Assembly (NCBI GenBank): GCA_018823905.1
Contig: JAHJHL010000176.1
Span: 1 to 57,337, forward strand
Source: Alphaproteobacteria bacterium
GTDB taxonomy: Bacteria; Pseudomonadota; Alphaproteobacteria; Sphingomonadales; Sphingomonadaceae
Length of the DNA stretch: 57,337 nucleotides
Reading direction: 5' to 3'
The translations under genes and the position numbers were made by a program. The notes under the pieces are model-generated. The model made no database searches, had not been told where the DNA came from, and was given only the letters and a program-made list of their open reading frames with translations. Below are positions 7,397 to 27,040 of this stretch, piece by piece. Position 1 is the stretch's first letter; every line of letters starts with the position of its first letter.

Positions 7397-8907
7397 TGCC
7401 GATCGTACGACTCGGCAATGAAGGGCGCTGGACCAATTATCACGGCACCGGCACCTGCGAGGCGGCGACGCGGTTTGCGCTGCGTAGCGGCGATGCGCCG
7501 CGCGGGCGCGACGAGATCGCGATTGCTGCCGGATCAGTACAGGACTGGCTGGTCGAGGCGGCGGCTGCAAAGCGGCGCGTCCGTCCGCTCGGGGCGGGTT
7601 GGTCACCGTCGAACATCAATATCGCATCGCAATGCTGGTTGCTCCACACGCGCCGCTTCAACCGCTGCTTCCTTATCGATGCCGCTGACGTCCGCCCCGG
7701 CGTCAACGCCGACGGCTTGATGCTGGTCGAGGCGGGGGCGCTCGTTGACGAAGTGTCGGACAAGTTCGAGGCGCAAGGGCGTTCATTGTGGACCAGCGGC
7801 GCAGGCAACGGTCAAACCTTTGCGGGTGCGTGTGCCACCGGCACTCACGGGTCGATGATCGCCAGCGGCGGCATCCAGGATCATATTCGCGCAGTGCAGA
7901 TTGTGACCCCTGCGGGCATCCACTGGATCGAACCCGCAACCGGTGTGATGACCGACGCCTTTGTCGCCGCGACGGGATCGACGGTGTTGCGCGACGACGC
8001 CCTCTTTGCGGCGGCGCAACTGCCCATGGGATCGCTCGGCATCATTACCGCGCTGGTCGTGGACAGTGTGCCGAAATTCCTGGTTCGCCCGATCCAGAAT
8101 CTGCGCAAGGTTGATCGCGCGGCGCTGGGTTGGCTGGCGGCCGGTGATTTTCGGCGCTTCTCGGCCAACTATGCGCTCGATCAGGATCCCGATTTTGTCC
8201 AGATGATCGTCAACCCCTACAAGCCGTTCAAACGCCCGGCGATGCTGCGCTTCCTTTATCGCGAGCCCTGGCGCGACGATTATCCGCGCGCCACGCCGGG
8301 GCAGTTGGGGGCAGGCTATGACGCGCTCAGCCTGCTCGGGCGCCTGCTCGACGATTACCCGTGGGCGCGCGGCGCATTGCTGCAATTTGCGATGAAACAG
8401 GGCTATGCGAGCGGTCCCGATGTCGATGCGCCACCGGTTTATGGCAGCTGGGGGGAGGGGCTCGACACCCATCGCCCCCTCGCCGACCTGTTCAACGCAT
8501 CCGTCACGATCGACCGCGCCGATCTGGCGCATGCGTTCGAGTTGATCTGCGCCGTCTATGCACGCCACGGCGGTTCGACCGTCGTCACCGTGCGCTTCAT
8601 GGCGCGCGCCGAAGGGCTGCTGGCGCCCGCGCGTTTCCCGCACAATGCGGTGATCGATTTTGATGGTCCGCGCAGTGCGCGCACTGCCGACGCCTATGCG
8701 CGCGTCGTCGAACGTCTCGATGCCGAGGGGATCGCCTTCACGCGCCATTGGGCCAAAAGCTGTCGCCTCGACGCAGCCCGCGTCGCCGCCGATTATGGCG
8801 AGGATTTTCGCCGCTGGCGCGCGGCGCGCGACCGGCTGCTGCCCGATCCGGAGCACCGGGCGCTGTTCGGTAGCGCGGTGCTCGATGGACTGGGGCTGAC
8901 GTGTTGA
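7396..8907 (+). CDS. FAD-binding oxidoreductase, aldonolactone oxidase-like
   Basis: A 503-residue flavoprotein of the VAO/PCMH fold. The FAD-binding half runs to about residue 215 and includes GAGWSPSNIN near residue 70, the LVEAGALVDEV segment and the GACATGTHGSM signature near residue 150. The latter resembles the GTHGS motif of L-gulono- and D-arabinono-lactone oxidases. The C-terminal half fits an ALO-type substrate domain (YGEDFRRWRAARDRLLPDP near the end). It probably oxidises a sugar lactone or related polyol with oxygen or another acceptor, but the substrate is unknown. It is coupled to the upstream small membrane protein; a palindromic repeat follows. Confidence 0.82.
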   Translation: MPIVRLGNEGRWTNYHGTGTCEAATRFALRSGDAPRGRDEIAIAAGSVQDWLVEAAAAKRRVRPLGAGWSPSNINIASQCWLLHTRRFNRCFLIDAADVRPGVNADGLMLVEAGALVDEVSDKFEAQGRSLWTSGAGNGQTFAGACATGTHGSMIASGGIQDHIRAVQIVTPAGIHWIEPATGVMTDAFVAATGSTVLRDDALFAAAQLPMGSLGIITALVVDSVPKFLVRPIQNLRKVDRAALGWLAAGDFRRFSANYALDQDPDFVQMIVNPYKPFKRPAMLRFLYREPWRDDYPRATPGQLGAGYDALSLLGRLLDDYPWARGALLQFAMKQGYASGPDVDAPPVYGSWGEGLDTHRPLADLFNASVTIDRADLAHAFELICAVYARHGGSTVVTVRFMARAEGLLAPARFPHNAVIDFDGPRSARTADAYARVVERLDAEGIAFTRHWAKSCRLDAARVAADYGEDFRRWRAARDRLLPDPEHRALFGSAVLDGLGLTC

Positions 8908-10869: not shown

Positions 10870-11745
10870 GTGAACGAAGCGCCGCACGAGCATCGGCTGG
10901 AAACGCCGCACGGCGAAATCTGCTGGTTCGAATGGGGGGAGCCGTCGGAGCGCCCGTCGCTGCTGTTGCTCCACGCGACGGGGTTTCACGCGCGGTTATG
11001 GGATCAGGTCGTCGCGGCGCTGCCCGCAGGCACCCACGTCATTGCGCCCGATCAACTCGGCCATGGCCGCAGCGCCAAGCCCGCGTCGCTGTTCGACTGG
11101 GCGAAAACCGCCGACGCGCTGCTGCCGCTGATCGACAGCTTTGCAGGCAAGCCGCTTGTCGGTTGCGGTCACAGCATGGGCGGTTACGTCCTGACCCGGC
11201 TCGCCGCCGAGCGACCCCATGCCTTTGCGCATCTCTTCCTGATCGATCCGGTCATCATGCCGCCTGAGTTTTACATCGGCGCGGCCGATGCGCCCGTACC
11301 CGACCCGGCCGAACATCCCGTGGCGCGGCGGCGCAGCCGTTGGGATAGCTGGGAAGCGATGAACGCGCATTTCGCCTCGCGTCCGCCCTATGCGCATTGG
11401 CAGCCGGAAGCGCTCGCGGACTATTGCCGTTTCGGCCTGCTCGTGTCCGCTGATGGAGAGGGCTGGGATCTTGCCTGTCCGCCCGCGCTGGAAGCGTCCG
11501 TCTATCAAAATGCGTTGCGTACCAATCCGCACGGCTGGCTGCCGAGCATCACCGCTCCGGTAACCGTCATTCGCGCCAAGACCGGTGAACGCTCGGGCAA
11601 TCTCGACTTCTCGGTCAGCCCGACCTGGGCTGGCGTTGGTGCTGCGTTGAGTGCGGTGCGCGACGAACAATGGGCCGATCAAAGCCATTTCATCCCGATG
11701 GAAGCGCCGCGGCGCCTCGCCGACTTAATCGCCACCGAATTCTGA
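10870..11745 (+). CDS. alpha/beta hydrolase
   Basis: A 291-residue alpha/beta-fold hydrolase starting at GTG. The oxyanion region HATGFHARLWDQV lies near residue 38, the nucleophile elbow GHSMGGY near residue 99, and the catalytic His probably in the C-terminal QSHFIP near residue 275. No signal peptide is seen, so the enzyme is cytoplasmic. The substrate is unknown. It follows aspS by 2 bp and may be co-transcribed with it. Confidence 0.88.
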   Translation: MNEAPHEHRLETPHGEICWFEWGEPSERPSLLLLHATGFHARLWDQVVAALPAGTHVIAPDQLGHGRSAKPASLFDWAKTADALLPLIDSFAGKPLVGCGHSMGGYVLTRLAAERPHAFAHLFLIDPVIMPPEFYIGAADAPVPDPAEHPVARRRSRWDSWEAMNAHFASRPPYAHWQPEALADYCRFGLLVSADGEGWDLACPPALEASVYQNALRTNPHGWLPSITAPVTVIRAKTGERSGNLDFSVSPTWAGVGAALSAVRDEQWADQSHFIPMEAPRRLADLIATEF

Positions 11746-11805
11746 CCCCGGTGCCTGCGCTGCTTTGACAGTATCATCGGGCTGCGATAGCCGGGAGCAA
11801 GGTTG

Positions 11806-12759
11806 ATGGTGGGGGCAATGATGACCGACGCACGATGGGTTTTTGGAGCCGCATTGCTGGCGTTTTCGGCGCCCGCGACCGCCGAAACCTTGCCGATCAA
11901 CGCCGCCGATCCCGCCGCCGCTGACGTTGTTGATCTGATCCGCATTTCGGTCGAGCGGTTCGAGGGTGAGGATGGCACCGCGTTCGCGCAGGCGCTCGAA
12001 GCCGAACTGGCCGATGCCAGCTTTCGCGGCAGCCCGTTCTACCGCGTCGTTGCGCCCGAATCGGGGGCGCCAACCGATGCGCTGGTCACTGGCACGGTGC
12101 GCAACAGCGTCGAAGAGGTGCCGGTCATCGAAAAGCGCAAACGCTGCACCGAATATGACCCCGCTGACAAAAAGAAATGCACCAAGGAAATCGACGTCGA
12201 CATCCGCTGCCGCCGCCGCACCGCGACCGTTGCGACAACGGTGCGGCTGGTGGTCATAAACGACGGTTCGATCCGCTACACCCGGCCACTCAACGCCCGC
12301 GATCAGGTCACCTATTGCCCCGACCGCAGCGCGCCGCAATCGGTCGAGGATTATTTCACCGCGGCGATCCGCAGCCAAGTGAGGACGATCCGCAGCGACC
12401 TCGCCCCGCGCGACTATTCGCTCGACGTGCGGGTCGACGAAAGCACCAAGGGACTGACGAAACCCGCACAGGCGGCGTTCAAGGCCGCGGTGCGGCTGAC
12501 CAAGACCGATCCGAACGGCGCATGTGCGGCGTGGGAGACGCTGACCCGCGATGCCGAACCAACGGCGGCGCTCGCCTTCAATCTGGGCCTTTGCGAAGAA
12601 ATGCAGGGCGATCTGGACGCCGCCGTCGATTGGTACGGCGAGGCGCAACGACAGGGATTGCGCAGCAAAGCCGTTCCAGACGCTTTGGCGCGCATTGCCA
12701 GCCACCAGCGTGCATTAAGCGAGTGGACCGCGAGGCAAGCGGCGAACAGCAGCGAGTAA
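11806..12759 (+). CDS. exported hypothetical protein with C-terminal TPR-like region
   Basis: About 317 residues with a signal peptide ending near the ATAETLP segment. Starts at 11806, 11818 or 11821 are all possible; the last gives the most compact signal peptide. The middle has paired cysteines and basic stretches (KRKRC, KKKC). The C-terminal part (about residues 220-300) has alanine-rich helical pairs like tetratricopeptide repeats (AFNLGLCEEMQGDLDAAVDWY). It is probably periplasmic. No specific function is recognised. Confidence 0.72.
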   Translation: MVGAMMTDARWVFGAALLAFSAPATAETLPINAADPAAADVVDLIRISVERFEGEDGTAFAQALEAELADASFRGSPFYRVVAPESGAPTDALVTGTVRNSVEEVPVIEKRKRCTEYDPADKKKCTKEIDVDIRCRRRTATVATTVRLVVINDGSIRYTRPLNARDQVTYCPDRSAPQSVEDYFTAAIRSQVRTIRSDLAPRDYSLDVRVDESTKGLTKPAQAAFKAAVRLTKTDPNGACAAWETLTRDAEPTAALAFNLGLCEEMQGDLDAAVDWYGEAQRQGLRSKAVPDALARIASHQRALSEWTARQAANSSE

Positions 12760-12842: not shown

Positions 12843-13628
12843 ATGACCATTTCCCTTTCCGATCACGAAGTCGGCGTCAAATATGACGGCGACTATGACG
12901 ACACCATGGAAGCGCTGCAGGAGCGACTGGAGCGTGTGCAGGCGGCGCACATCACCCATGGCCAGCGCAGCGTCATCATGTTCGAGGGCTGGGACGCGGC
13001 GGGGAAGGGCGGGATCATCAAGCGGATGACCGCGCTGCTCGACCCGCGCTATTTCGATGTCTGGCCGATCAGCGCGCCGACCGACGAGGAGCGGGCGCGG
13101 CATTTTCTGTGGCGTTTCTGGAAACGCTTGCCCGGCAACCGCGAAATCGCGATCTTTGACCGTAGCTGGTACGGTCGCGTCCTCGTCGAGCGCGTCGAGG
13201 GATTTGCCACGGAGGCCGAGTGGCGCAAGGGCTATGACGAAATCAACGAATTCGAGGCGCAACTGACCGGCAGCCGGACCAATCTCGTCAAGGTTTTCGT
13301 TCATCTGACGCAGGAAGAACAGGACAAACGCTTTGCCGATCGCCTCGACGATCCGTGGAAGCGGTGGAAGACCGGCACCGAAGACTATCGCAACCGCGCC
13401 AAGCGCAAGGACTATCTCGCCGCGATGGACGAGATGTTCGCCCAGACGAACACCCGCTGGGCGCCGTGGAAGGTGATCGACGGCAACAACAAGAAGGCCG
13501 CGCGCATCGCGGCGCTGACCCATATCGCCGAGGCGCTGGAGGCGATCGTGCCAATGACGCCCCCCGATCTGGACCCCGCAGTGGTCAAGCTGGCGGGCAA
13601 AGCGTTCGGCTACAAGCCTAAAACCTAG
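12843..13628 (+). CDS. ppk2: polyphosphate kinase 2
   Basis: PPK2 enzymes use polyphosphate to phosphorylate nucleoside mono- or diphosphates. The 261-residue single-domain form is complete, with Walker A (GWDAAGKGGIIKR near residue 49), the lid-module arginines, and Walker B (IAIFDRSWYGRVLVERVEGF near residue 100). The conserved WKRWKTGTEDYRNR and WAPWKVIDGNNKKAAR segments follow. A short upstream GGTGAG acts as ribosome binding site. With ppk1 and ppx nearby, the region covers synthesis, hydrolysis and use of polyphosphate. Nucleotide preference is not predictable here. Confidence 0.94.
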   Translation: MTISLSDHEVGVKYDGDYDDTMEALQERLERVQAAHITHGQRSVIMFEGWDAAGKGGIIKRMTALLDPRYFDVWPISAPTDEERARHFLWRFWKRLPGNREIAIFDRSWYGRVLVERVEGFATEAEWRKGYDEINEFEAQLTGSRTNLVKVFVHLTQEEQDKRFADRLDDPWKRWKTGTEDYRNRAKRKDYLAAMDEMFAQTNTRWAPWKVIDGNNKKAARIAALTHIAEALEAIVPMTPPDLDPAVVKLAGKAFGYKPKT

Positions 13629-14404: not shown

Positions 14405-15201
14405 CTATATACTTAGCTGGGTTTCGTGGACAAAGGGTATCCATAGTTTGACTGAGGCGAGTGCGACGAAGCCGAGGTAAGATTCCTTGGTTTTGTCGTA
14501 GCGTGTGGCGACACGCCGCCAGTTCTTGAGCTTGTTGAACAGACGCTCGATCAGGTTGCGCCATTTGTATTTCGTGCGATCGTGCGGGGCGGGATTGCGC
14601 CGGTTGACCTTGGCCGGGATCACCGCCTCTACACCGACTGCCTCGATTTCCTTGCGGATAGCGTCGGCATCGTAGCCCCGATCAGCCAGGAAGGCCTCGA
14701 TCCGGTCGCTAATCATGCGGAACAGCGGAGCAAAGCCCTGCACATCGTGCGCCTGTCCGGGTGTCAGCACGAAGCCGAGCGGGAGACCTCTGGCGTCGCA
14801 TCTGGCGTGGAGCTTGGTGGAGAAGCCTCCTCGCGATCGGCCAAGCGCCTCGGTTTGCTGAGTCCCCTTTTTATGCCGACGGCACAATGATGTGCCCGGA
14901 CCACCGTGCTATCGATCATGTCGGCGGATGTATCGCGCCCCGCCAACTCGCCCAACGTCTCGAGCATGGCATCGAACACGCCGGTCGTGACCCAGCGTCG
15001 ATAGCGCCGGAACACGCTGTTCCACTTGCCGTACTCATCGGGCAGATGTCGCCATTGCGCGCCTGTCCGGGCAATCCACATCATGCCTTCGAAATAGGGG
15101 CGGTTATCCTGTGCCGGCCGGCATCCACGACCATGCTTAGGCGGCAGAAGCGCCCCGATCACTTCCCATTCTTCGTCTGCAACGCCGATCCGCTCGCTCA
15201 A
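14405..15201 (-). CDS. IS5-family transposase, two frames with -1 frameshift
   Basis: The first frame (15201 to 14764) carries the N-terminal part and the first catalytic Asp (MIDSTVVRAHH). The second frame (to 14405) carries the second Asp (DRGYDADAI) and the Glu (RNLIERLFNKLKNWRRVATRYDK), completing DDE. The frames join at an A5 run (14868-14872, minus strand ATAAAAAGG): a -1 slip gives ...AVGIKKGTQQTE, as expected for this group, in which programmed frameshifting is established. The stop of the second frame lies about 10 bp outside the inverted repeat, because the usual TAG formed at the IS end is changed here. Confidence 0.87.
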
Positions 15202-15348: not shown

Positions 15349-15377
15349 TGTCGGAAACCGCCTGCTCATTCGTCTAA
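15349..15377 (+). promoter_or_regulatory. candidate ECF promoter of the sigma gene
   Basis: The bipartite motif TGTCGGA-N15-CGTCTAA ends 27 bp before the sigma factor ATG. Exactly the same two heptamers with the same spacing occur before the receptor gene at 16925-16953, which suggests both are targets of this sigma factor. Confidence 0.65.
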
Positions 15378-15404
15378 CTGAACGAAGACAAATATTGGAG
15401 CGCT

Positions 15405-15881
15405 ATGTCGAGCCTGGCTGAGATGTTGGCAAAAGCCAGGCGTGCGGTAATGCGGCGCGGCGTTCCCATTGAAGATGCGGATGAACTTGTGCACGACGCA
15501 TTTATCAAGGTCGAGCAATTTGAGCAGACCCATCGCGCGCAGTCGCGCGAAGCGCTTTTGGTCAAGGCGGCGGTCAATCTGTCGATCGATCGTGCCAGGC
15601 GAAGCCGCCGGTCACCCTTTGTCGAATATGAAAATATCGCCGACATCCGCGATTCTACGCCGGACGCGGCGCAAATTGTCGAAGAGCGGGCGCGCCTGCT
15701 GCACGCCGCCGCAGGGCTGGAACAGTTGAGCGAGCGCGCCGGGCGAATTTTGCTGCGGCGACGGCTGGACAATCTCTCCTTCGCCGAGATCGCCGATCTG
15801 GAAGGGATGTCGGTTGCGGCGGTTGAAAAGCAGGTCGCGCGTGCGACGTTGCAACTGATGAAATGGATGGAGCAATGGTGA
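15405..15881 (+). CDS. ECF RNA polymerase sigma factor, FecI-like
   Basis: A 158-residue extracytoplasmic-function sigma factor with region 2 (DADELVHDAFIKVEQFEQ near residues 24-41) and region 4 (LSERAGRILLRRRLDNLSFAEIADLEGMS near residues 105-133). It probably directs its own gene and the receptor operon, which share a bipartite upstream motif. The stop overlaps the FecR gene start, giving a coupled sigma/anti-sigma pair. Cell-surface signalling of the FecI-FecR-FecA type is the expected mode. Confidence 0.9.
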   Translation: MSSLAEMLAKARRAVMRRGVPIEDADELVHDAFIKVEQFEQTHRAQSREALLVKAAVNLSIDRARRSRRSPFVEYENIADIRDSTPDAAQIVEERARLLHAAAGLEQLSERAGRILLRRRLDNLSFAEIADLEGMSVAAVEKQVARATLQLMKWMEQW

Positions 15882-16846
15882 CGCCGCTCGATCGATCCGA
15901 ACGGATCGCTGCCGAAGCTGCGGCGTGGCTCGCGCGATTGGAGTCGACGGGTCGTACAGCGGCGACCGAGGCAGGGCTCCAGACGTGGCTGGTAGCCGAT
16001 GACGCGCATCGGCGGTCGTTCGAACGGGCGATGGACGCCTGGGCAATTATCCCGGGCGCGGCAGCCCTGCTCGACCCGGGTACGGCGGGGGTCGCCGACC
16101 CGGCGCCGGCAAATGACCGGTGGCAGCCCGTCCGGGCGCTCGCGATCGCAGCGTCGCTTTGCTTTGTCATTTTTGCGTCCGGCTGGTGGTTCTTCGACCA
16201 ACCCACCGCCTATTCGACCGCGAAGGGCGAGCAAAAAATCGCGACGCTGGAAGACGGAACCCGCGTGGCCCTAAATGCCGAGACGCACCTTAGCGTCCGA
16301 TATGATCGGCAAACGCGGAGCATCCACCTCGACAAGGGCGAGGCGATGTTCGAGGTGAAGTATAATGCCAAAAGGCCGTTCAAGGTCGAGGTCGGTGACA
16401 AGACGGTGACCGCGCTTGGGACGAGTTTTCTGGTACGCAAGATGGGCGATGCTGTTGTTGTGACGCTGATTTCAGGCAAGGTGCGCGTCGACACGCGTAA
16501 CGCTTCAACCGGATCGCCGCCGCGGCTACCGACGGTGCTGACGCCCGGTGAGCGTCTGATCGCTGTCCCCGATTCTCCCGAGATGGTCACGCGCACCTCA
16601 TCCGAGGCCGCAACGGCGTGGCGGCGCGGCCAGGTGGTGTTCGAGGACACGTCCTTGTCGGCCGCGGTCGCCGAGCTCAACCATTATGGTGGGGTGCAGA
16701 TCGACGTGGCAGATCCTCGTCTGGGCGGCCTTACCGTGTCGGGGGTCTTTGCAACCAACGATGCGGCGGAGTTCGCTTCAGCCATCGCGGTATTGCACGG
16801 ACTGAAAGTAGAGCGGGAAGGCGACCGGCTGCGCTTGTCGCGGTAA
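15875..16846 (+). CDS. FecR-family anti-sigma/sigma regulator
   Basis: An inner-membrane regulator that transmits receptor occupancy to the ECF sigma factor. An N-terminal cytoplasmic domain (DUF4880-like, residues 1-80) is followed by a transmembrane helix near residues 85-107 (ALAIAASLCFVIFASGWWFF). The periplasmic FecR domain follows (LEDGTRVALNAETHLSV; FEVKYNAKRPFKVEVGDKTVTALGTSF). A C-terminal STN-like segment (AVAELNHYGGVQIDV) probably contacts the receptor. ATG 15875 overlaps the sigma stop; ATG 15863 is possible. The receptor gene lies 158 bp downstream with its own promoter motif. Confidence 0.92.
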   Translation: MVTPLDRSERIAAEAAAWLARLESTGRTAATEAGLQTWLVADDAHRRSFERAMDAWAIIPGAAALLDPGTAGVADPAPANDRWQPVRALAIAASLCFVIFASGWWFFDQPTAYSTAKGEQKIATLEDGTRVALNAETHLSVRYDRQTRSIHLDKGEAMFEVKYNAKRPFKVEVGDKTVTALGTSFLVRKMGDAVVVTLISGKVRVDTRNASTGSPPRLPTVLTPGERLIAVPDSPEMVTRTSSEAATAWRRGQVVFEDTSLSAAVAELNHYGGVQIDVADPRLGGLTVSGVFATNDAAEFASAIAVLHGLKVEREGDRLRLSR

Positions 16847-16924
16847 TTTCGGCTAACCAGAATCGAACAAAAGAGCGACACATAATTACGCGCCGTGCGC
16901 TACGGGCAATTTTTTGCGCTATTA

Positions 16925-16953
16925 TGTCGGATTTGCGACGCGCGCGCGTCTAA
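16925..16953 (+). promoter_or_regulatory. candidate ECF promoter of the receptor-peptidase operon
   Basis: TGTCGGA-N15-CGTCTAA, identical in both boxes and spacing to the motif before the sigma gene. It ends 51 bp before the receptor ATG, leaving room for a short leader with a strong GGGGGGA ribosome binding site. Confidence 0.65.
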
Positions 16954-17004
16954 ACAAATAGGGCGGAATGCGATCAACGCACCGACCGCAGGGGGGATAT
17001 ATCT

Positions 17005-20000
17005 ATGATTTCGAAGGCTATGCTGGGAGCCTGTGCTGCCGTTGTGGCGATTGCGGCAAATACGGCGGAGGCCCGCGACCAGGCGGAGTACAGCTTCGAC
17101 TTGCCGCAACAGCCGTTGGCTCGCTCACTGCGCGAGGTTGCCTCAACGACCAATAGCAATGTCGTCTTTGCCGGGGCTGTGGTGCAGGGCAAGACCGCTC
17201 CGGCAGTTCGGGGGCGCGTCACGGCTGGCGCCGCCTATCGGATGTTGCTGCAAGGTTCGGGCCTGGTCTTGCGCGAAACGACCGGGGGATCCTTCGTCGT
17301 CGCGCGGCCGCGTAACACGGTCTCGGCGGCCGCCCTGGGCGGCGCCTCGGCGAATTACGGTGCGGCGGCGCAAGAGCCGGCACCGCCGGCCGAAACCGTC
17401 GACACCACCGAGATCGTCGTCACTGGCTCGCAAATTAAGGGCGCTAAAATCGATGCCGTTCTTCCCGTCACGGTGTTGACCGAAGAAGATGTCGAGGCGA
17501 CCGGCGCGGTGACCGGCGACGAATTGTTCCGGTCGATCCCGCAAATCGGCGCGACGGCGTTCAACGACCAAAACACCGTTGGCAGCGCCAATGCCGCACG
17601 CGGCGACGTGGCATCGATCAACTTGCGCGACCTTGGCACCGGCAACACTTTGTTGCTGATCAATGGTCGCCGCATGGTGCTGAACCCCGGTTTCCAGACC
17701 GAATTGCTGGTGCCGGTCGTTTCGCCCAACACCAACACCATTCCGCCCGGCGCCGTCCGCCGCGTCGAGGTTCTGCGCGACGGCGCATCGCCGATTTACG
17801 GCGCCGATGCCGTCGCAGGGGTCATCGATACCCAGCTGAAAGGCAATATGAAGGGCGGATTCCTGCAAGGCCGCTATGATTTTTCCGACAGCACGTCGCA
17901 GTTCGAATATAATATCTTCGGCGGCTACGGTTTTGACTTCAATGGCGGCAAAACCAATCTGACCGTTTATGGCAGCTATTTCCACGGCAATGGCATCCTT
18001 GCGACCGAGCAGGATTTTTCATCGTCGGACAATTTGCAGCGCTTCTTTGAAGGCACCAGCTTTGAGGGCGATACCCAGCTCGATAACCGCAGCACGGTAA
18101 CCCCTTGGGGCCGTTTCAAGGCAAGCCGCAGCATCAACCGTGTTGGCGACGATGATTTCCATATCCAGCCGTCGACCAATACCGGTTGCAACATCCAGAT
18201 CGGCAATGGGCTGTGTATCGATAACGGCAGCACGACCGGTGCGATCACGAGCGACCTGCGTTACGATTCCGCGCCGGTATCCAATCTCTATTCGGAACGC
18301 GATCGTTACAACGCCTATGCCTTGCTCAACCATGATTTCGGCAATGGCATGGAGCTATATGCCGAGGGTTCTTATTATTATTCGAAACTGAACCGGACGA
18401 TCGAGCAATCGTCGCCACTCGGCGCCGCGCCGGTGACCGTTTCGACGACGGCTTATTATAATCCGTTCGGTGCCGCTGATCCGACCAACCCCAATCGCGT
18501 TACTGGCACCAATGTTCCCGCCAGTGGCGCCACGGTGTCGATCGTCGGCTATCGTCCGATTGACGCAGGGCCGCGTGTCATTCAGGTGACGGGCGACAGC
18601 TGGCGACTGCTCGCCGGGTTGCGCGGCGAAATCGGTGCTTGGGATTTTGACAGCGCAATTCTTTATACCCAGGCCAACACGACCGACCGCGCGCGGCGCA
18701 TTTCGCAGACGCTTTATCAGGCGGCAATCAACCGGACTGACGCAACGGCGTATAACCCCTTCAGCGGCGGCAGCCTGACAAACCCGAATACCGAGGGGAG
18801 CGGACGCAACAGCCAGGCGACGATCGACAGTTTCCTGGTTGATGTTTACCGCAAGGGTGAAACGACGCTGGCGCTCGCCGACTTCAAAATTTCGCGCAAC
18901 GATCTGTTCCAGCTTCCTGCTGGCGACTTGGGCATCGCCGTCGGCGTCGAGGCCCGCCGCGAAACCTTTATCGACGACCGCGATCCGCGCGCCGACGGGA
19001 CGATCACCTTCACCGACAGCGTGACCGGCCTGTTCGATGAAAGCGACATTCTGGGTACCAGCCCCAGCCCAGACACGTCGGGCAACCGCGAAGTCTATTC
19101 GGCTTTTGCCGAAGTCTTTGTGCCGGTGGTGAGCGAAGACATGAACATTCCGCTGGTGCATAAATTCGATGTCCAGCTGGCCGGTCGTTTCGAGAGCTTT
19201 TCTGACGTTGGCAGCACGTTCGTGCCGCGCATCGCGGCTTCGTGGGGGCTGAACGATTCGGTCACTTTGCGCGGTGCATGGTCGAAGGGCTTCCGCGCCC
19301 CGAACCTTGCCCAGGTCAATGACGTGGGCACCACCCGGAGCAATACCACCGACGATTTCGTCCGCTGCTTGCCGCGCGTTGAACGTGGCGAAGCGGGCAT
19401 CGACAACGTCGCCGATTGCGCTGGCACGAGCATTTCCAGCCTGCGAACTGGCACGAACGCGCTCAATCCCGAACACACCCAAAGCATCAACGCCGGGATC
19501 GTTATTTCGCCTCCCGAATTGCGCGGTTTCACTATCACCGCCGATTATTGGCGGATCAAGCAAACCGGCCTGGTCGGCACGTTCGGCTTTCAGAATCAGG
19601 TCGCGCTCGATCTGCTGCTGCGCACACAAGGCAGCTCGAACCCCAACGTGCTGCGCGATCCGGCCGATGCCGATACGATCGCCTTGTTTGCCGGGACGAG
19701 CCTCGCGGCCAATCCAGCGGGTCCGATCAACTTCATCCTCGACCCTTATCTGAATCTGGACAGCCGGACGTCCACGGGCATCGACTTCGGTCTTTATTAC
19801 GACATCGGCACCACCCCGATTGGCGATTTCAAATTCCGTTTCAACGCGGCGCGCCTGCGTTCGTTTTTCCAGGTGCCGAGTGTCGATGGTCAGGCCTTGC
19901 TTGACGGTAATTTCCCGGTCGAAGGTCTGGGCGAGCTGTTGCTGATCGACGGACGCCCGAAATGGCGTTTCAGCACGTCGCTCAACTGGGACATTGGCGA

Positions 20001-20286
20001 TTTCGACATCGACTTGTTCGGCAAATATACCGGCAAGTTCCTCGACCCGAGCACCACCAATAATGCAGGTGATTCCTTGCCCGTTCATTCGTGGTTCGTT
20101 GTCAACCTGTCGGCTGGCTATACGTTCAAGGGCCGGGGGCCACTGAGCGATACGCGCATCCGTATCGGCGCGAACAATTTGTTCGATCGGGATCCGCCGA
20201 TCGCCGACGAGAGCTATGGCTATTACGGCGCCGAACATAGCGGCAAAGGGCGCACGCTGTTTGCCGAGATTCGCAAGAAATTCTGA
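17005..20286 (+). CDS. TonB-dependent outer-membrane receptor with STN signalling domain
   Basis: A 1093-residue receptor. After a signal peptide (cleaved near EARDQ, about residue 25) comes an STN domain (about residues 30-98: YSFDLPQQPLARSLREVAS onward), the hallmark of FecA-type transducers. A TonB-box-like EIVVTG lies near residue 135. The plug domain (VLPVTVLTEEDVEA; LLLINGRRMV; VEVLRDGASPIYGADAVAGVI) is followed by a large beta-barrel ending in the C-terminal Phe of RKKF. It is adjacent to its sigma/FecR pair and 10 bp before a secreted M14 peptidase. The substrate is unknown; a peptide or peptide-conjugated ligand is an inference from the peptidase. Confidence 0.95.
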   Translation: MISKAMLGACAAVVAIAANTAEARDQAEYSFDLPQQPLARSLREVASTTNSNVVFAGAVVQGKTAPAVRGRVTAGAAYRMLLQGSGLVLRETTGGSFVVARPRNTVSAAALGGASANYGAAAQEPAPPAETVDTTEIVVTGSQIKGAKIDAVLPVTVLTEEDVEATGAVTGDELFRSIPQIGATAFNDQNTVGSANAARGDVASINLRDLGTGNTLLLINGRRMVLNPGFQTELLVPVVSPNTNTIPPGAVRRVEVLRDGASPIYGADAVAGVIDTQLKGNMKGGFLQGRYDFSDSTSQFEYNIFGGYGFDFNGGKTNLTVYGSYFHGNGILATEQDFSSSDNLQRFFEGTSFEGDTQLDNRSTVTPWGRFKASRSINRVGDDDFHIQPSTNTGCNIQIGNGLCIDNGSTTGAITSDLRYDSAPVSNLYSERDRYNAYALLNHDFGNGMELYAEGSYYYSKLNRTIEQSSPLGAAPVTVSTTAYYNPFGAADPTNPNRVTGTNVPASGATVSIVGYRPIDAGPRVIQVTGDSWRLLAGLRGEIGAWDFDSAILYTQANTTDRARRISQTLYQAAINRTDATAYNPFSGGSLTNPNTEGSGRNSQATIDSFLVDVYRKGETTLALADFKISRNDLFQLPAGDLGIAVGVEARRETFIDDRDPRADGTITFTDSVTGLFDESDILGTSPSPDTSGNREVYSAFAEVFVPVVSEDMNIPLVHKFDVQLAGRFESFSDVGSTFVPRIAASWGLNDSVTLRGAWSKGFRAPNLAQVNDVGTTRSNTTDDFVRCLPRVERGEAGIDNVADCAGTSISSLRTGTNALNPEHTQSINAGIVISPPELRGFTITADYWRIKQTGLVGTFGFQNQVALDLLLRTQGSSNPNVLRDPADADTIALFAGTSLAANPAGPINFILDPYLNLDSRTSTGIDFGLYYDIGTTPIGDFKFRFNAARLRSFFQVPSVDGQALLDGNFPVEGLGELLLIDGRPKWRFSTSLNWDIGDFDIDLFGKYTGKFLDPSTTNNAGDSLPVHSWFVVNLSAGYTFKGRGPLSDTRIRIGANNLFDRDPPIADESYGYYGAEHSGKGRTLFAEIRKKF

Positions 20287-20296
20287 GGACAGTCGT

Positions 20297-21562
20297 ATGA
20301 GAAAAGGCGTGACGGTAATGAAGCATATGATCCGTCACGCCTTTTCCGTATCGATAGCGGCTCCGTTGCTCGCGATTGGGTCGGCCCATGCCGCAGATAC
20401 CGCCTCGACGGCCGGTCAGGTCTCCGCGCCGGTAAAGGCAGGATGTGCAAACGCTCAGGTGCGGCTCGATACGAATTTTCCGACCGGCGCCGCGGCGCGC
20501 TGTGAAACGCTGGGCAAGCGCGAACTGGCGGTCACGCTGGCGCCCGAAGACGCTCCGCCGATCAATTGCAGCGCGTGGTATGCCTTTCGCCTGACCCCCC
20601 AACCCGGGGCAAAACGCGGCCAGCGGGTCACGATCACGCTAAACTATGCCGCTTGCGGGCATCGCTATTGGCCGAAGGTCAGCGAAGATGGGGTGCGTTG
20701 GACGTCCCTCCCTGCCAGCGACGTGACAGTATTCGAAAACAACGGGATCAAGCAGGCGCAGTTGCGGATCCAGGTGGGCGCCGGGCCGCTGTTTGTCGCC
20801 GGGCAGGAAATCATTGCCCCTTCGACCAACGAACATTGGCTCGCCGAAAAGGCGCGCCATCCCGACGCCCGCCGCACGATTCTTGGCCGGTCCGCCGAGG
20901 GGCGCAGCATCGAACAACTCACCATCACATCTGCCCCGACACCGCCGCGCGAACAGGTGGTGCTGGTCGGTCGCCAGCATCCGCCGGAAATCACCGGTGC
21001 GCAGGCGATGATGGCCTTTGTCGACACAATCCTGTCGGATGACCCGATTGCCATAGCCTATCGCGCGCGCTTTTCGACGATCGTCGTCCCCATGCTCAAT
21101 CCCGATGGCGTGGCGCGCGGGCATTGGCGCCATGCCACTGGCGGGCTCGACCTGAATCGCGACTGGGGGCCATTCACCCAGCCTGAGACCCGGTTGATGC
21201 AGGGGTTGTTGAAAGATATTGCCGACGACCCGGCCCGGACATTGCGGCTTTTCCTTGATTTTCATTCGACCCGCAAAGACGTCGTTTACACCTTGCCGGA
21301 CGCCAAGATCAGCGATCCGCCCCGGTTCGCTGCCGATTGGCTGGCACGTTATCAGGACCGCATGCCCGGCTATCGCGTCGAGCGTGATTCCAGCCATAAT
21401 CCGGGGCTGCCAACCTCGAAATCATGGGTCTATGAAACCTATCATGTTCCCACCGCGACGTTTGAAATCGGCGATGACACCGACCGAGCACTTATCGCAA
21501 GAATTGGGCGGGAGTCGGCGCTGGCGATGATGGAAACGATGCTCGCGACGCCCGCACCCTGA
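20297..21562 (+). CDS. secreted M14 zinc carboxypeptidase
   Basis: A 421-residue exported peptidase. The signal peptide ends near SAHAADT. A beta-rich N-terminal domain with several Cys (about residues 45-175) precedes the catalytic domain. Zinc ligands are visible as HPPE (H228, E231) and DFHST (H323), and the catalytic Glu is in TFEIGDD (E390). The arrangement resembles the cytosolic-carboxypeptidase branch of M14, but with export. It follows the TonB receptor by 10 bp and is presumably co-transcribed. It may trim peptides delivered by the receptor in the periplasm, or process them outside. Start may be ATG 20297, 20318 or 20327; a perfect hairpin spans this zone. Confidence 0.88.
   Translation: MRKGVTVMKHMIRHAFSVSIAAPLLAIGSAHAADTASTAGQVSAPVKAGCANAQVRLDTNFPTGAAARCETLGKRELAVTLAPEDAPPINCSAWYAFRLTPQPGAKRGQRVTITLNYAACGHRYWPKVSEDGVRWTSLPASDVTVFENNGIKQAQLRIQVGAGPLFVAGQEIIAPSTNEHWLAEKARHPDARRTILGRSAEGRSIEQLTITSAPTPPREQVVLVGRQHPPEITGAQAMMAFVDTILSDDPIAIAYRARFSTIVVPMLNPDGVARGHWRHATGGLDLNRDWGPFTQPETRLMQGLLKDIADDPARTLRLFLDFHSTRKDVVYTLPDAKISDPPRFAADWLARYQDRMPGYRVERDSSHNPGLPTSKSWVYETYHVPTATFEIGDDTDRALIARIGRESALAMMETMLATPAP
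20301..20346 (+). promoter_or_regulatory. perfect 15-bp stem-loop at the start of the M14 peptidase gene
   Basis: The arms GAAAAGGCGTGACGG (20301-20315) and CCGTCACGCCTTTTC (20332-20346) are perfectly complementary around a 16-nt loop. The structure begins 14 bp after the receptor stop. The upstream ATG (20297) lies just before the stem, and two in-frame ATGs (20318, 20327) lie in the loop. It can fold in RNA and could tune peptidase translation or protect the receptor mRNA 3' end. There is no T-run, so it is not a standard terminator. Confidence 0.6.
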
Positions 21563-21618: not shown

Positions 21619-22953
21619 CTAAACTTTTGCAAAAGGATCCTCGCGGAGTGACCGTCCGGCCGTTTCGGGCATGAAACGCAGGGCGACCAGCCCGACAACG
21701 CAGGCCAGCATCATATAATAGGCGGGCATCAGCGGATCGCCGGTCAGGCTGATCAGCCCGCTCCCGATCATCGGCGCGGTGCCGCCAAAAATCGACGTCG
21801 AGATATTATAGGCAATCGCGAAGCCCGCGAAACGCACCGCGGTCGGGAACATCGCCGGAAAGGTCGCGGAGATCGTCGCGAGCTGCGGGACATAGAGGAG
21901 GCCCAGCAACAGGAATCCTGCAACAGCGCCCGCAAAGCCGGTGCCGATCAGCATGTAAAGCGGCACGACGAAAACGAGCAGGCCGATCAGCGACCAGCGC
22001 CACATCGGCCGCCGCCCGATCCGGTCGGACAATGCGCCCGCGAACGGCAGGAAGACCATCATGAAGACCATGCCGATGATCGGCACGATCAGCGCCTCTT
22101 CGTTCGACAGGCCGATACGCCGCTGCAAATAGGTCGGCATATAGCTGAGCAGCGAATAGTTGACGACGTTGAGCGCGACGACCAGCCCGCCGACGACCAA
22201 GAGCGGGCGCCAATATTCGCGCATCATCGCGGCGATGCCCGGCGGCTTGCGCCGGTCAGCCGACGCCATTTCCTCCCGAAAGACGGGGGTGTCCTCCAGC
22301 TTTGAGCGCAGATACATCCCGACCAGGCCGACCGGTCCGGCGATCAGGAACGGGATGCGCCAGCCCCATTCGTGCATGGCTTCGTCGCCAAGGTGCAGCG
22401 AATAGCCGAGCATCAGCGCAGCGCCGAAAGAGAAGCCCGCGAGCGTGCCGAACTCCAGAAAGCTGCCATAAAAGCCGCGCCGGTCGTCGGGCGCATATTC
22501 GGCCATGAAGGTCGCCGCGCCGCCATATTCGCCGCCGGTCGAAAAGCCCTGCAGCATGCGCAGGACGATCAAGATCGTCGGCGCCCAGAAACCGATGCTG
22601 TCGTATGAGGGGATCAGCCCGACGGCAAAGGTTGCCGCGGCCATCAGCAGGATCGTCATCGCCAGCACCGACTTGCGCCCGATGCGATCGCCCAGCGGAC
22701 CCCAGAACAGGCCGCCGAGTGGACGGACGAGGAAGGAAATGGCAAAAGTCGCGAGCGCGAACAGCACCGCCTCTTCGGTATCGCCGGGAAACAGCGCGGC
22801 AGAGATATAGGTCACGCCATAGGCATAGATGCCATAATCGAACCACTCGACCGCATTGCCCAGCGCCGACGCGCCGACCGCGCGGTTCAGCGGCGAGGGT
22901 TTGGCGAAGGGGGCTGGCTGGCCGGGCGCCGGGATCATCATATCATTGTCCAT
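21619..22953 (-). CDS. MFS transporter, metabolite:H+ symporter (MHS) family
   Basis: A 444-residue, 12-helix major facilitator. The MHS/ProP-like N-terminal signature is visible (GNAVEWFDYGIYAYG near residue 33), as are the cytoplasmic loop motifs GPLGDRIGRK and GALSDRIGRRP. It starts 3 bp after the preceding MFS gene and is the last gene of the ectoine cluster transcript. MHS proteins import osmolytes and dicarboxylates, so uptake of ectoine, hydroxyectoine or a precursor is plausible. It lacks the long coiled-coil C-terminus of E. coli ProP, so osmosensing by that means is unlikely. Confidence 0.88.
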   Translation of the reverse strand: MDNDMMIPAPGQPAPFAKPSPLNRAVGASALGNAVEWFDYGIYAYGVTYISAALFPGDTEEAVLFALATFAISFLVRPLGGLFWGPLGDRIGRKSVLAMTILLMAAATFAVGLIPSYDSIGFWAPTILIVLRMLQGFSTGGEYGGAATFMAEYAPDDRRGFYGSFLEFGTLAGFSFGAALMLGYSLHLGDEAMHEWGWRIPFLIAGPVGLVGMYLRSKLEDTPVFREEMASADRRKPPGIAAMMREYWRPLLVVGGLVVALNVVNYSLLSYMPTYLQRRIGLSNEEALIVPIIGMVFMMVFLPFAGALSDRIGRRPMWRWSLIGLLVFVVPLYMLIGTGFAGAVAGFLLLGLLYVPQLATISATFPAMFPTAVRFAGFAIAYNISTSIFGGTAPMIGSGLISLTGDPLMPAYYMMLACVVGLVALRFMPETAGRSLREDPFAKV

Positions 22954-24234: not shown

Positions 24235-25677
24235 TCAGGCGGCGCGCCGGTCCTTTGCGGCTTCGGCTTCGTCCTCGACCAAGACGCGGTGGAGGACGCG
24301 GACGGCTTTTTCGAAGTCGCGGCTTTCGATGATGAACTGGATATCGACGTTGCGGATCTGGTGCTGCATCGCGATCATCGTGATGCCGGCCTCGTCGAGC
24401 GCGCGCAGCGCATCGGGGACCAGCCCAGGCCGCGAGATATCGCTGCCGATCGCCGACACCATCGCCACCGGTTGTGCCGAAATGGCGGCGTCGGGATAGT
24501 CCTTTTGCAGGTCGGCGATCACCTTTTTCACCGCATCGGCACTGGCGAGCAGATAGTGGGTGATCGTGTTGGCGTTCGACGATTTACTGACGATCCACAA
24601 GCCATGGCGCTCCAGCGCGCCGAGGATCGCGGTGTCATACCCTTTGACCCCGACCATATCCTGTTCGAAAAACTGCAGCGCCTGCATGTGACGAATGCCG
24701 GTGATGATTTCGACGCGCGGGACGTCGGAGACATAGTGACCCGTCACCAGCGTACCGCCATCTTCGCGGTCGAACGTGTTGCGCACCCGCAGCGGAATGT
24801 CGGTTTGCCGCAGGCCGCGACCGGCGCCGGGGTGGATCGCTTCCATGCCCAGGTTGGCGAGCTGGTCAGCGACGTCGTAATTGGTCCGGCCGATCTTGCG
24901 CGCCTTGTCCTCGCCGACCAGCTTCGGGTCGGCGCTCGACAGGTGAAATTCCTTGTGAATGATCGCCTCGCGCGCGCCGGTGACCACCGCAAGGCGCGAA
25001 AAGGTCATTTCGGTGTAGCCGCGCGCATAGCGCCGTACCATGCCGCCCTCGCAGCCTGCATAGCCGGTGACGATCGGCAGGGTGGTCGTCAGGTCGATGT
25101 CGGCAAAGGCGTCGCCGATCCGGGTGTCGAGACTGCTGAGGTCGTCCTGATCCCACAGCGTCAGATCGACGAACCGTGCGTTGACGTCGCGGTCGCGCAG
25201 CAGCAGGCTGGTGCTGTGCGCGCTATGCGCTTCGCCGACCCCCGCGAGCAATTCGCGCACCGTCATCAACTGTTCCTTGACGCAGAAGCGGCCGTGGCTG
25301 CGCAACCGCGCCAGATCGTCGAGGCAGGCGGTGACCGCGGCGATCCGGCGATCGACAAAGGCATCGGCTTCGGCGCGGCTTTCGTCGCGCGCAAACATCG
25401 CGGCATTGCGGGCGTGCATCGCGTCATGGACCTCGCGCATCGCGGCGCGCCAACCGTCGGCGGCGTCATCGGCGACGAATCGCCCATAAACGCCCGGAAC
25501 GCCGGTCTTTTTATTCTCGAGCAGCAGGTCGGTCATCCCGGCATAGGCCGAGACGACAAAGATGCGGTTATACAGATCGGCGCCTGACCGACCGGCGATC
25601 AGGACGTTGTCGAACAATGTCGCGGTCGCCGCCATCGACGTGCCGCCGATCTTTTCGACGCTGTGCCGACCGGTCAT
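24235..25677 (-). CDS. ask: aspartate kinase, ectoine-type (Ask_Ect)
   Basis: Aspartokinase phosphorylates L-aspartate, the first step toward the ectoine precursor aspartate semialdehyde. The 480-residue protein begins with MTGRHSVEKIGGTSM, the usual K-x-GGTSM nucleotide site. The kinase domain includes GYAGCEGGMVRRYARGYTEMTFSR. Tandem ACT-like regulatory domains lie at the C-terminus (VAMVSAIGSDI; MIAMQHQIRNVDIQFII). The ATG overlaps the ectD stop (ATGA), confirming operon membership. Such operon-linked aspartokinases are known to be less feedback-restricted than the general enzyme. Confidence 0.95.
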   Translation of the reverse strand: MTGRHSVEKIGGTSMAATATLFDNVLIAGRSGADLYNRIFVVSAYAGMTDLLLENKKTGVPGVYGRFVADDAADGWRAAMREVHDAMHARNAAMFARDESRAEADAFVDRRIAAVTACLDDLARLRSHGRFCVKEQLMTVRELLAGVGEAHSAHSTSLLLRDRDVNARFVDLTLWDQDDLSSLDTRIGDAFADIDLTTTLPIVTGYAGCEGGMVRRYARGYTEMTFSRLAVVTGAREAIIHKEFHLSSADPKLVGEDKARKIGRTNYDVADQLANLGMEAIHPGAGRGLRQTDIPLRVRNTFDREDGGTLVTGHYVSDVPRVEIITGIRHMQALQFFEQDMVGVKGYDTAILGALERHGLWIVSKSSNANTITHYLLASADAVKKVIADLQKDYPDAAISAQPVAMVSAIGSDISRPGLVPDALRALDEAGITMIAMQHQIRNVDIQFIIESRDFEKAVRVLHRVLVEDEAEAAKDRRAA

Positions 25678-26594
25678 GCCGGTACCGTTTCGGCCAGCGA
25701 TCCGTGCTGCGGCATCAGCGGCACAGGTTCGCCGCGATTGGCGAGGAACCACGGCCGGGGCTTTTCGACCCCGAACGGTTTTTCCAGCCGGTTGCTGACC
25801 GCATTATAGACCAGGAACGCATTGGCGCGCGGGAAGGGCGTGATGTTGCCGTTCGACCCGTGCATCAGATTGCAGTCAAACAGGATCACCGTTCCCGGCT
25901 TGCCGGTGGGCGCGACGATGCCATGTTTGTGCGCCAGTTCGGCCAGGCTATCCTCGTCGGGCACGCCAAATTCCTGTTTCTTCAGCGAGCTCAGATAATG
26001 ATCGTCTGGGGTTTCGCCGACACAGGTCAGATAGGTTTTGTGCGAGCGCGGAATGACCATCAGCGGCCCGTTGTGCGGGGTGTTTTCAGCGAGCAGGATC
26101 GACATCGACAACGCGCGCATCCGCGGCATGCCGTCCTCGACATGCCAGGTTTCAAAATCGCTGTGCCAGTAAAATTCCTTGCCCTTGAACCCCGGTTTAT
26201 AGTTCAGGCGCGACTGGTGGATATACACCTCGTCGCCCAGCAGGAAGCGCGCGACATCGGCGAGCCGCGCATCGGCAGCGAGCCGTGCCATCACCGCATT
26301 CTGCTGGTGAATCTCGAAGATCGAGCGGATTTCCTTGCTCTGCGGCTCGGTCACGATCGTGTCGTCGTCGAGCGCAGACGGGTCGGCGAGCAGTTTGCCG
26401 GCGGCACGCTGCAGGAAAGTGACCTCGTCGTCCGAGAAAAGATCTTCCAGCACGATATAGCCGTCGCGGTCGAATTGTGCGGCCAGTTCGACGCCGATCG
26501 GTGCCTCGTCGCTCCATTCGTTATGGACGACAGGATCCTGGCGCGGCCGCATCTCGGCGGCAGCCGCGTGGCGGGATGGGTAGATGTCGGTCAT
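25674..26594 (-). CDS. ectD: ectoine hydroxylase
   Basis: An Fe(II)/2-oxoglutarate dioxygenase that converts ectoine to 5-hydroxyectoine. The iron ligands are visible: HSD in FYWHSDFETWHVEDGMP (near residue 145) and a distal His in LMHGSNGN (near residue 247). The family signature region includes these residues and the following LSMSILLAEN segment. Length of 306 residues is normal. A strong GGGGGA ribosome binding site precedes the ATG, and ask overlaps the stop. The cell should make both ectoine and hydroxyectoine. Confidence 0.97.
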   Translation of the reverse strand: MTDIYPSRHAAAAEMRPRQDPVVHNEWSDEAPIGVELAAQFDRDGYIVLEDLFSDDEVTFLQRAAGKLLADPSALDDDTIVTEPQSKEIRSIFEIHQQNAVMARLAADARLADVARFLLGDEVYIHQSRLNYKPGFKGKEFYWHSDFETWHVEDGMPRMRALSMSILLAENTPHNGPLMVIPRSHKTYLTCVGETPDDHYLSSLKKQEFGVPDEDSLAELAHKHGIVAPTGKPGTVILFDCNLMHGSNGNITPFPRANAFLVYNAVSNRLEKPFGVEKPRPWFLANRGEPVPLMPQHGSLAETVPA

Positions 26595-26626
26595 GGGACG
26601 TCCCCCTTTCTTGGTCTGAATGGATG

Positions 26627-27040
26627 TCAGGCGGCGGGTGCGGGCTCGCGCGCCGACGCCGTGTCGGCGGGATAGGCGCCAGTTGCGTCGTGGACTTCCT
26701 TGCCGGTCACCGGCGGATTGAAGACGCAGGCGGTCAAGATGTCGGTTTCGGGCCGCACGATGTGCCGGTCATGGTCGTTGAGTGCATACATCACGCCGGG
26801 TTCCAGCTTGTGCGTCTTGCCCGTACCCAGATCTTCAATCGTGCCGGTGCCTTTCAGGATGAACACCGATTCCAGATGATTCTGATAGTGCATCTTCAGC
26901 TCCGACCCCGCGAACAGCGTCGTGATATGGAAGGAAAAGCCCATCCCATCGTCCTTGAGCAACATACGGGCGCTGGCCCAGCCGTCCGAGCGGACATTCT
27001 GGTCGGTCTTGCGAATGGCGTTCAGGTTGCGAACGATCAT
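26627..27040 (-). CDS. ectC: L-ectoine synthase
   Basis: A cupin enzyme that cyclises N-gamma-acetyl-L-2,4-diaminobutyrate to ectoine. The metal ligands of the family are present at their usual positions: E57 ([10 protein letters not shown]), Y85 and H93 ([10 protein letters not shown]). Length is 137 residues, with a short flexible C-terminal tail. An AGGAGAA ribosome binding site precedes the ATG. It lies 15 bp after ectB and 32 bp before ectD. Confidence 0.97.

Follow-up and report, generated by a model that had tools for sequence, protein, structure and literature searches.

Cell-surface signalling systems of the FecI/FecR/FecA type, such as fec of Escherichia coli and the Fpv and Pup systems of Pseudomonas, consist of an extracytoplasmic function (ECF) sigma factor, a FecR-type anti-sigma factor and a TonB-dependent receptor with a periplasmic signalling domain; in E. 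coli, transcription of fecIR depends on sigma70 (PMC9249621). In the lasso-peptide isopeptidase clusters (astexin, sphingopyxin), a peptidase accompanies a TonB transporter and sigma/anti-sigma pairs (PMC9266682). Bacterial carboxypeptidases of the cytosolic carboxypeptidase (CCP) type, which belong to peptidase family M14, had according to the authors of the BcCCP structure no known function or substrates in 2014 (PMC3940198).

Here, we investigated a locus in a 57,337-nt stretch of DNA (the window; contig JAHJHL010000176.1 of assembly GCA_018823905.1, an alphaproteobacterium of the family Sphingomonadaceae). Open reading frames (ORFs) and domain searches reveal four genes on the same strand over positions 15,405–21,562, which encode an ECF sigma factor, an overlapping FecR-like protein, a TonB-dependent receptor with an STN signalling domain and an exported M14 carboxypeptidase. 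We read the locus as a cell-surface-signalling operon pair that would control how a peptide ligand is taken up and trimmed, and in which signalling parts became attached to a receptor–M14 pair, and we put the probability of this reading at about 65%. The original prediction, made from the DNA letters alone, is right in kind and too narrow: its FecI/FecR/FecA-type set with a putative shared sigma-specific promoter is supported, whereas the coupling to M14, which it took for the unusual feature, is not what is rare; unusual is the attachment of the signalling parts, seen in two lineages. Every component belongs to a known family. No description of the ECF–FecR–STN receptor–M14 set was found in the titles and abstract openings of open-licence PMC articles, which does not show that none exists.

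Signalling genes and a paired promoter-like motif

The FecI-like sigma factor (plus strand, as are all features of the locus; 15,405–15,881, 158 aa) matches Sigma70_r4_2 (3e-10) and the sigma70-ECF model TIGR02937 (3.1e-14). Its reading frame overlaps at 15,863–15,881 with that of the FecR-like anti-sigma factor (15,863–16,846, 327 aa), which matches FecR (3.8e-21), DUF4880 (1.7e-7) and, below the cut-off of that model, FecR_C (3.9e-4); as in FecI/FecR/FecA systems, an ECF sigma gene thus adjoins a FecR-type gene. The receptor (17,005–20,286, 1093 aa) carries plug (4.5e-16), barrel (1.3e-27) and STN (5e-5) domains.

Exact copies of a promoter-like motif, TGTCGGA-N15-CGTCTAA, lie at 15,349–15,377, ending 27 nt 5′ of the sigma ATG (15,405), and at 16,925–16,953, ending 51 nt 5′ of the receptor ATG (17,005). 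These identical bipartite motifs had been noticed in the original prediction, and the genome-wide search that it proposed did not find them scattered over unrelated sites: the 3.69-Mb draft genome of 216 contigs holds exactly two exact matches, both at this locus, and none to the motif read backward as a control, while the exact motif had no match in 396 other sampled family genomes. The observation of the motif pair and the gene set is confirmed and lies beyond chance. Allowing one mismatch adds a single site in the same genome (G000:C194:22402–22430, minus strand), rejected as a promoter upon ORF inspection since it points into the 3′ end of an opposite-strand gene and not towards a sigma or receptor gene. 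With up to two mismatches, the motif has 19 sites and the backward control 29, so that looser matches are at chance level and only the exact pair stands out. A genome-wide regulon was therefore rejected as well, the exact matches being these two only and the two-mismatch matches not exceeding the control.

The motif moves together with the sigma clade. We compared loci with the FecR homologues nearest to that of the window, and both upstream regions were read in 13 of 20 fetched loci, in a Sphingopyxis locus (L141) and in the window; the loci left out of the count (L128, L130, L132, L134, L136, L137 and L138) have sigma factors 26–36% identical. In ten relatives with sigma factors 51–73% identical (L119–L127 and L141), the motif occurs with at most three mismatches and a spacing of 15 in 16 of the 20 upstream regions, against a background of 1.0% (60 of 6000 random 195-nt stretches from the same loci). 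At spacings of 13, 14, 16 and 17, it was found once in 80 trials on the same regions, and four loci with sigma factors 33–41% identical lack it in all eight regions. The signal of the motif resides in its position and spacing. Several points weigh against this picture. L120, with a sigma factor 57% identical, lacks the motif in either region, and L119 has it ahead of the sigma gene only, without a copy ahead of the receptor gene; the 16 motif-bearing regions are not independent because L124, L125 and L127 are close kin; and one-mismatch matches in the genomes of the closest M14 relatives (L139–L141) show no excess, with five for the motif and nine for the backward control.

The conserved motif at a fixed spacing suggests a promoter function. 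As an architecture, autoregulated cell-surface signalling has good support from gene order and motif positions, and unlike E. coli fec, the window has the motif ahead of both the sigma and the receptor gene.

The STN domain of the receptor, at approximately residues 24–105 (17,074–17,319) and probably the grafted part of the protein, scores 23.5 bits against the Pfam cut-off of 28.4, and 28.6 bits when searched together with its neighbours. The predicted structure has a well-predicted core at about residues 27–101 (mean predicted local distance difference test, pLDDT, of the whole 67.1), and its fold matches the signalling domains of FpvA, PupB, PupA and FecA, which bears out the STN assignment of the original prediction and agrees with the N-terminal signalling domain of FecA-type receptors. 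The nearest sigma/FecR sets adjoin receptors with other barrels. Five of these receptors (L121, L122, L124, L125 and L127) match the window receptor over the STN domain alone, with 40–47% identity in local alignments, and the window STN is 37–59% identical in alignment to the STN regions of L141 and five other receptors of the sigma clade. The gene 3′ of the receptor, inspected at eight of the nine loci L119–L127 (L125, whose receptor ORF is short, was excluded), encodes an M16 peptidase in L121, L122, L124 and L127 and a tyrosine-phosphatase family protein in L123 and L126, and lies on the opposite strand in L119 and L120.

The receptor–M14 pair with and without signalling parts

Among 298 family genomes, 39 including the own genome encode M14 at E 1e-20 or better, and the surroundings of all 38 other matches were fetched. 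In 36 of these 38 relatives, M14 has a gene for a receptor of at least 700 aa on its own strand, at most 500 bp away; of the two exceptions, L085 has its receptor split into two ORFs, and none was found in L087, the weakest match. The receptor barrels, directly 5′ of M14, are mostly 52–58% identical to that of the window. The linkage whose absence in relatives the original prediction had named as a ground for abandoning it is therefore present, and it is too widespread for its companion claim, that coupling of M14 to the receptor is unusual. The link between M14 and a TonB receptor is widespread, and the sigma/FecR/STN part is the uncommon element. Not one of 37 receptors of family relatives that were compared aligns over the window STN, the alignments starting at residue 87 or later and at 103 or later in all but one; a sigma and FecR pair was found in none of the 38 fetched stretches, some of which end at contig ends, and L060 holds an unpaired sigma match. 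A homologous barrel 5′ of M14 is thus common in such STN-less loci, whereas the window adds STN, sigma and FecR.

Of the named M14 loci, taken as the best 80 of 555 confirmed relatives, 46 have a receptor of at least 700 aa in the stretch, and in 25 of these 46 it is encoded on the strand of M14 and no more than 500 bp away; many distant loci, including planctomycete and verrucomicrobial ones among the matches listed, have no receptor in the stretch. Both sigma and FecR occur in six. In four of the six, an STN receptor adjoins M14, which gives the ECF–FecR–STN receptor–M14 order that the original prediction had proposed to look for in other genomes: L141, which is Sphingopyxis jiangsuensis, and L175, L183 and L202, which are Parvularculaceae. 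In L182 and L192 the receptor lacks STN, and these were not counted as the same architecture. The window's proteins resemble those of L141 throughout (sigma 73%, FecR 65%, receptor 70% and M14 76% identical).

In a receptor tree of 79 rows, from which receptors shorter than 700 aa and the family-genome duplicates L146, L154, L155 and L184 had been dropped, the STN-bearing rows need two changes, and a single clade of STN receptors is rejected by the approximately unbiased (AU) test (p-AU 1.55e-24, on 28 of the 79 rows, chosen by hand). Between the Sphingopyxis and Parvularculaceae groups, sigma factors are only 26–32% identical (over short stretches) and FecR proteins 29–31%, which fits separate acquisition. 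The receptors of L175, L183 and L202 contain, between STN and plug, where STN-less receptors start, a second signal-peptide-like stretch preceded by a Met; it looks like the former start of the receptor or an alternative start still in use. In the window receptor, a relic signal peptide at the corresponding place was considered and not claimed because the stretch is only rich in Ala and Gly and does not rank with the top hydropathy peaks. The window motif is absent at up to three mismatches from L175, L202 and L183, and a search for other bipartite words shared as a promoter by these loci gave nothing convincing. The two tree placements and the sequence divergence suggest that signalling parts joined the receptor–M14 lineage at least twice, once in Sphingopyxis and once in Parvularculaceae, with gain as the probable direction of change.

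Three observations count against our reading. The tree was already known when the AU test was run. The Pfam STN scores of L141, L175, L183 and L202 (16.4–25.0 bits) are all below the cut-off of 28.4. And of the closest M14 genes among the best 80 of 555, which come from Sphingopyxis records and are 92, 91 and 76% identical (L139, L140 and L141), the first two have no receptor, sigma or FecR gene adjoining M14, with no masked bases beside it. The origin of these three genes indicates that the window probably comes from Sphingopyxis or a close relative. The L139 and L140 genomes encode a 57% identical receptor elsewhere (alignment from residue 94), in a locus with two-component, symporter and alpha/beta-hydrolase genes and without M14. 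For the original prediction, which had called the system self-contained, these solitary M14 genes and the dispersal of catabolic partners in the own genome, described below, make that word too strong.

A search of plasmid records for M14 matched 14, none over 80% of the query and none above 60% identity. In the S. bauzanensis locus L241, an S58-family peptidase gene at 11,561–12,688 lies 3′ of the receptor, at the place of M14 in relatives. CapA-like (PGA_cap) genes occur near M14 in nine of the 80 named loci by blastp (L153, L155, which is the same as L058, L171, L173, L180, L192, L196, L200 and L208; checked with Pfam for L058 only).

The M14 enzyme, its ligand and competing explanations

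The M14 carboxypeptidase (20,318–21,562, 414 aa; M14 8.6e-20) follows the receptor gene closely. Its mechanically called ORF begins at 20,216, within the receptor gene, and a start at 20,297 or 20,318 is likelier; either gives a signal peptide by eye (MKHMIRHAFSVSIAAPLLAIGSAHA) and, depending on the start codon chosen, a gap of 10–31 nt to the receptor gene, for which no terminator-like site is listed. Residues H221, E224, H316, N280-R281 and E383, each of which we take to have a zinc-binding or catalytic role, do not vary among the 18 aligned sequences. Export and a full active site, both proposed in the original prediction, are thus upheld.

The predicted model (mean pLDDT 84.9) is closest in fold to BcCCP, to human-type CCP5 with glutamate analogues and to other bacterial CCPs including PaCCP, with template modelling (TM) scores by Foldseek of 0.71/0.77 against BcCCP. 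Profile matches to 3l2n, 4a37 (PaCCP) and 4b6z (BcCCP) run from profile positions 39–45 to 372 and so cover both the N-terminal beta domain and the M14 catalytic domain that, together with the conserved active site, mark CCPs, mammalian CCP5 included. Unlike these structures, to which it is about 19% identical, the window enzyme carries an export signal by eye; it is CCP-type by fold, not cytosolic, because of this N-terminal signal peptide. Several M14 relatives have lipoprotein-like signals by eye.

The gene neighbours in family relatives point to acidic substrates. Of the 10 loci whose M14 is at least 49% identical, 9 contain an amidohydrolase of the N-acyl-D-amino-acid deacylase type, and a LysR gene, a DadA-like dehydrogenase and an SDF symporter are each found in 8; of the other 28 loci, 21 have an NtrC-type response regulator, 21 a histidine kinase, 24 an SDF symporter and 20 an alpha/beta hydrolase, so that the symporter is found inside the fetched stretch in 32 of 38 relatives. 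In the own genome, these catabolic partners are encoded elsewhere: the nearest symporter homologue (65% identical) is on contig C158 and the nearest amidohydrolase homologue (50% identical) on contig C27, adjoining a divergent LysR gene, and the catabolic route could thus exist in dispersed form. All 18 aligned sequences also share K368, which lies 15 residues ahead of the catalytic Glu and presumably corresponds to position 255 in carboxypeptidase A numbering. The BcCCP paper lists Ile255 among the S1′ residues, and its authors read the S1′ residue Lys330 as a sign of acidic substrates (PMC3940198).

Taken together, the symporter, deacylase-like and D-amino-acid dehydrogenase neighbours and the invariant lysine near S1′ suggest an acidic peptide, possibly containing D-residues, as the likeliest ligand class, which narrows the generic oligopeptide of the original prediction. 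For a deglutamylase activity like that of the eukaryotic members, the invariance of K368 is suggestive only. K368 is one column off BcCCP Lys330 in the profile alignment, so that their equivalence in the S1′ pocket is unproven, and BcCCP gave only low activity on the glutamate derivative assayed (PMC3940198); both speak against an acidic substrate.

The same neighbours bear on an ordinary iron-carrier signalling system, for a ferric siderophore or similar compound, in which M14 would be a bystander or would process a peptidic siderophore. FecI/FecR systems described so far work mostly for iron carriers (PMC9249621), and the best NCBIfam scores of the receptor are to siderophore-receptor models, all far below cut-offs. 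In relatives, however, genes for the same barrel family are accompanied by those for M14, dicarboxylate symporters, deacylase-like proteins and D-amino-acid dehydrogenases, an amino-acid or peptide setting, and we consider this explanation unlikely.

A self-made peptide pathway, in which the receptor would recover the cell's own peptide and M14 dismantle it, has its model in the lasso isopeptidase clusters with their TonB transporter and sigma/anti-sigma pairs (PMC9266682). They are also a precedent for the peptidase coupling that the original prediction had called unusual, and one such cluster exists in the own genome. At E 0.01 or better, STN searches of the draft genome found two receptors, that of the window and one on contig C160, both with a peptidase gene 3′; the latter adjoins an S9 peptidase and the lasso-type genes Transglut_core3 and Asn_synthase, and a further Transglut_core3 locus is on C207. 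Lasso-peptide-type gene sets with S9 peptidases are present at both places (L247 on G000:C160 and L248 on G000:C207). Against the window's dependence on such a pathway, an STN receptor of its own is encoded on the lasso contig, where no motif occurs at up to three mismatches, although the contig ends before any sigma/FecR gene would appear. Transglut_core3 matches in the genome are confined to C160 and C207, with none in the window, in a search aimed at that family and at no other peptide-biosynthesis family; and where lasso clusters combine biosynthesis genes with a serine isopeptidase of the S9 type, the window has a zinc peptidase of the unrelated M14 class. A self-made peptide is accordingly improbable here.

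That M14 itself takes part in signalling, e.g., by shortening FecR or the receptor at a periplasmic C-terminus, would suit its export to the same compartment and its place in the receptor operon, but is highly improbable because M14 has a role without FecR in the 38 M14-bearing family relatives, whose fetched stretches contain no sigma/FecR pair.

Other genes of the window lie around the locus. An IS4/5-family transposase in two overlapping frames on the minus strand (14,405–15,201) ends about 150 nt 5′ of the first motif copy, and further upstream are a polyphosphate kinase 2 gene (12,843–13,628) and a tRNA-Ser gene (8,807–8,883). Downstream, an ectoine synthase gene (EctC; 26,627–27,040, minus strand) lies within a region (24,235–27,040) whose adjoining ORFs resemble by eye ectoine hydroxylase and aspartate kinase, and a major facilitator superfamily gene (21,619–22,953) may be part of this ectoine cluster.

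Proposed mechanism and significance

Gene order, domains, the conserved motif pairs, the absence of STN and sigma/FecR from the sampled family relatives and the two placements in the tree are observed, and from these we infer the signalling itself and the ligand chemistry. Under the preferred reading of a signalling operon pair, a ligand would bind the TonB receptor, the STN domain would signal across the periplasm to FecR, and FecR would release or activate the sigma factor, which could then transcribe its own gene from the first motif copy and the receptor–M14 operon from the second. The ligand would be imported by the receptor and lose C-terminal, probably acidic, residues to the exported M14 enzyme in the periplasm, and the product might be taken up by an inner-membrane symporter encoded elsewhere. 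In contrast to FecI/FecR/FecA systems, this operon ends with an exported M14 carboxypeptidase and the receptor's kin lack STN; in most relatives, the receptor–M14 pair would work without the signalling parts. The attached switch probably serves to restrict production of the pair to times when a suitable acidic peptide is available.

A wider proposal, which we hold tentatively and at less than even odds, is that a widespread TonB-receptor system for the use of acidic peptides with D-residues has its periplasmic carboxypeptidases in the exported CCP-type M14 enzymes (the peptides being, e.g., gamma-glutamyl polymers or cell-wall stem peptides), and that a signalling plug-in has been attached to this system at least twice from different donors by STN fusion, one lineage keeping the old receptor signal peptide inside. 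If true, this would assign a function to bacterial CCP-type enzymes. The receptor, the symporter and the D-amino-acid enzymes that accompany the exported branch suggest candidate substrates. The locus would also show a route from a transport receptor to a signalling receptor, in which a mostly STN-less barrel family gained STN, sigma and FecR in two lineages.

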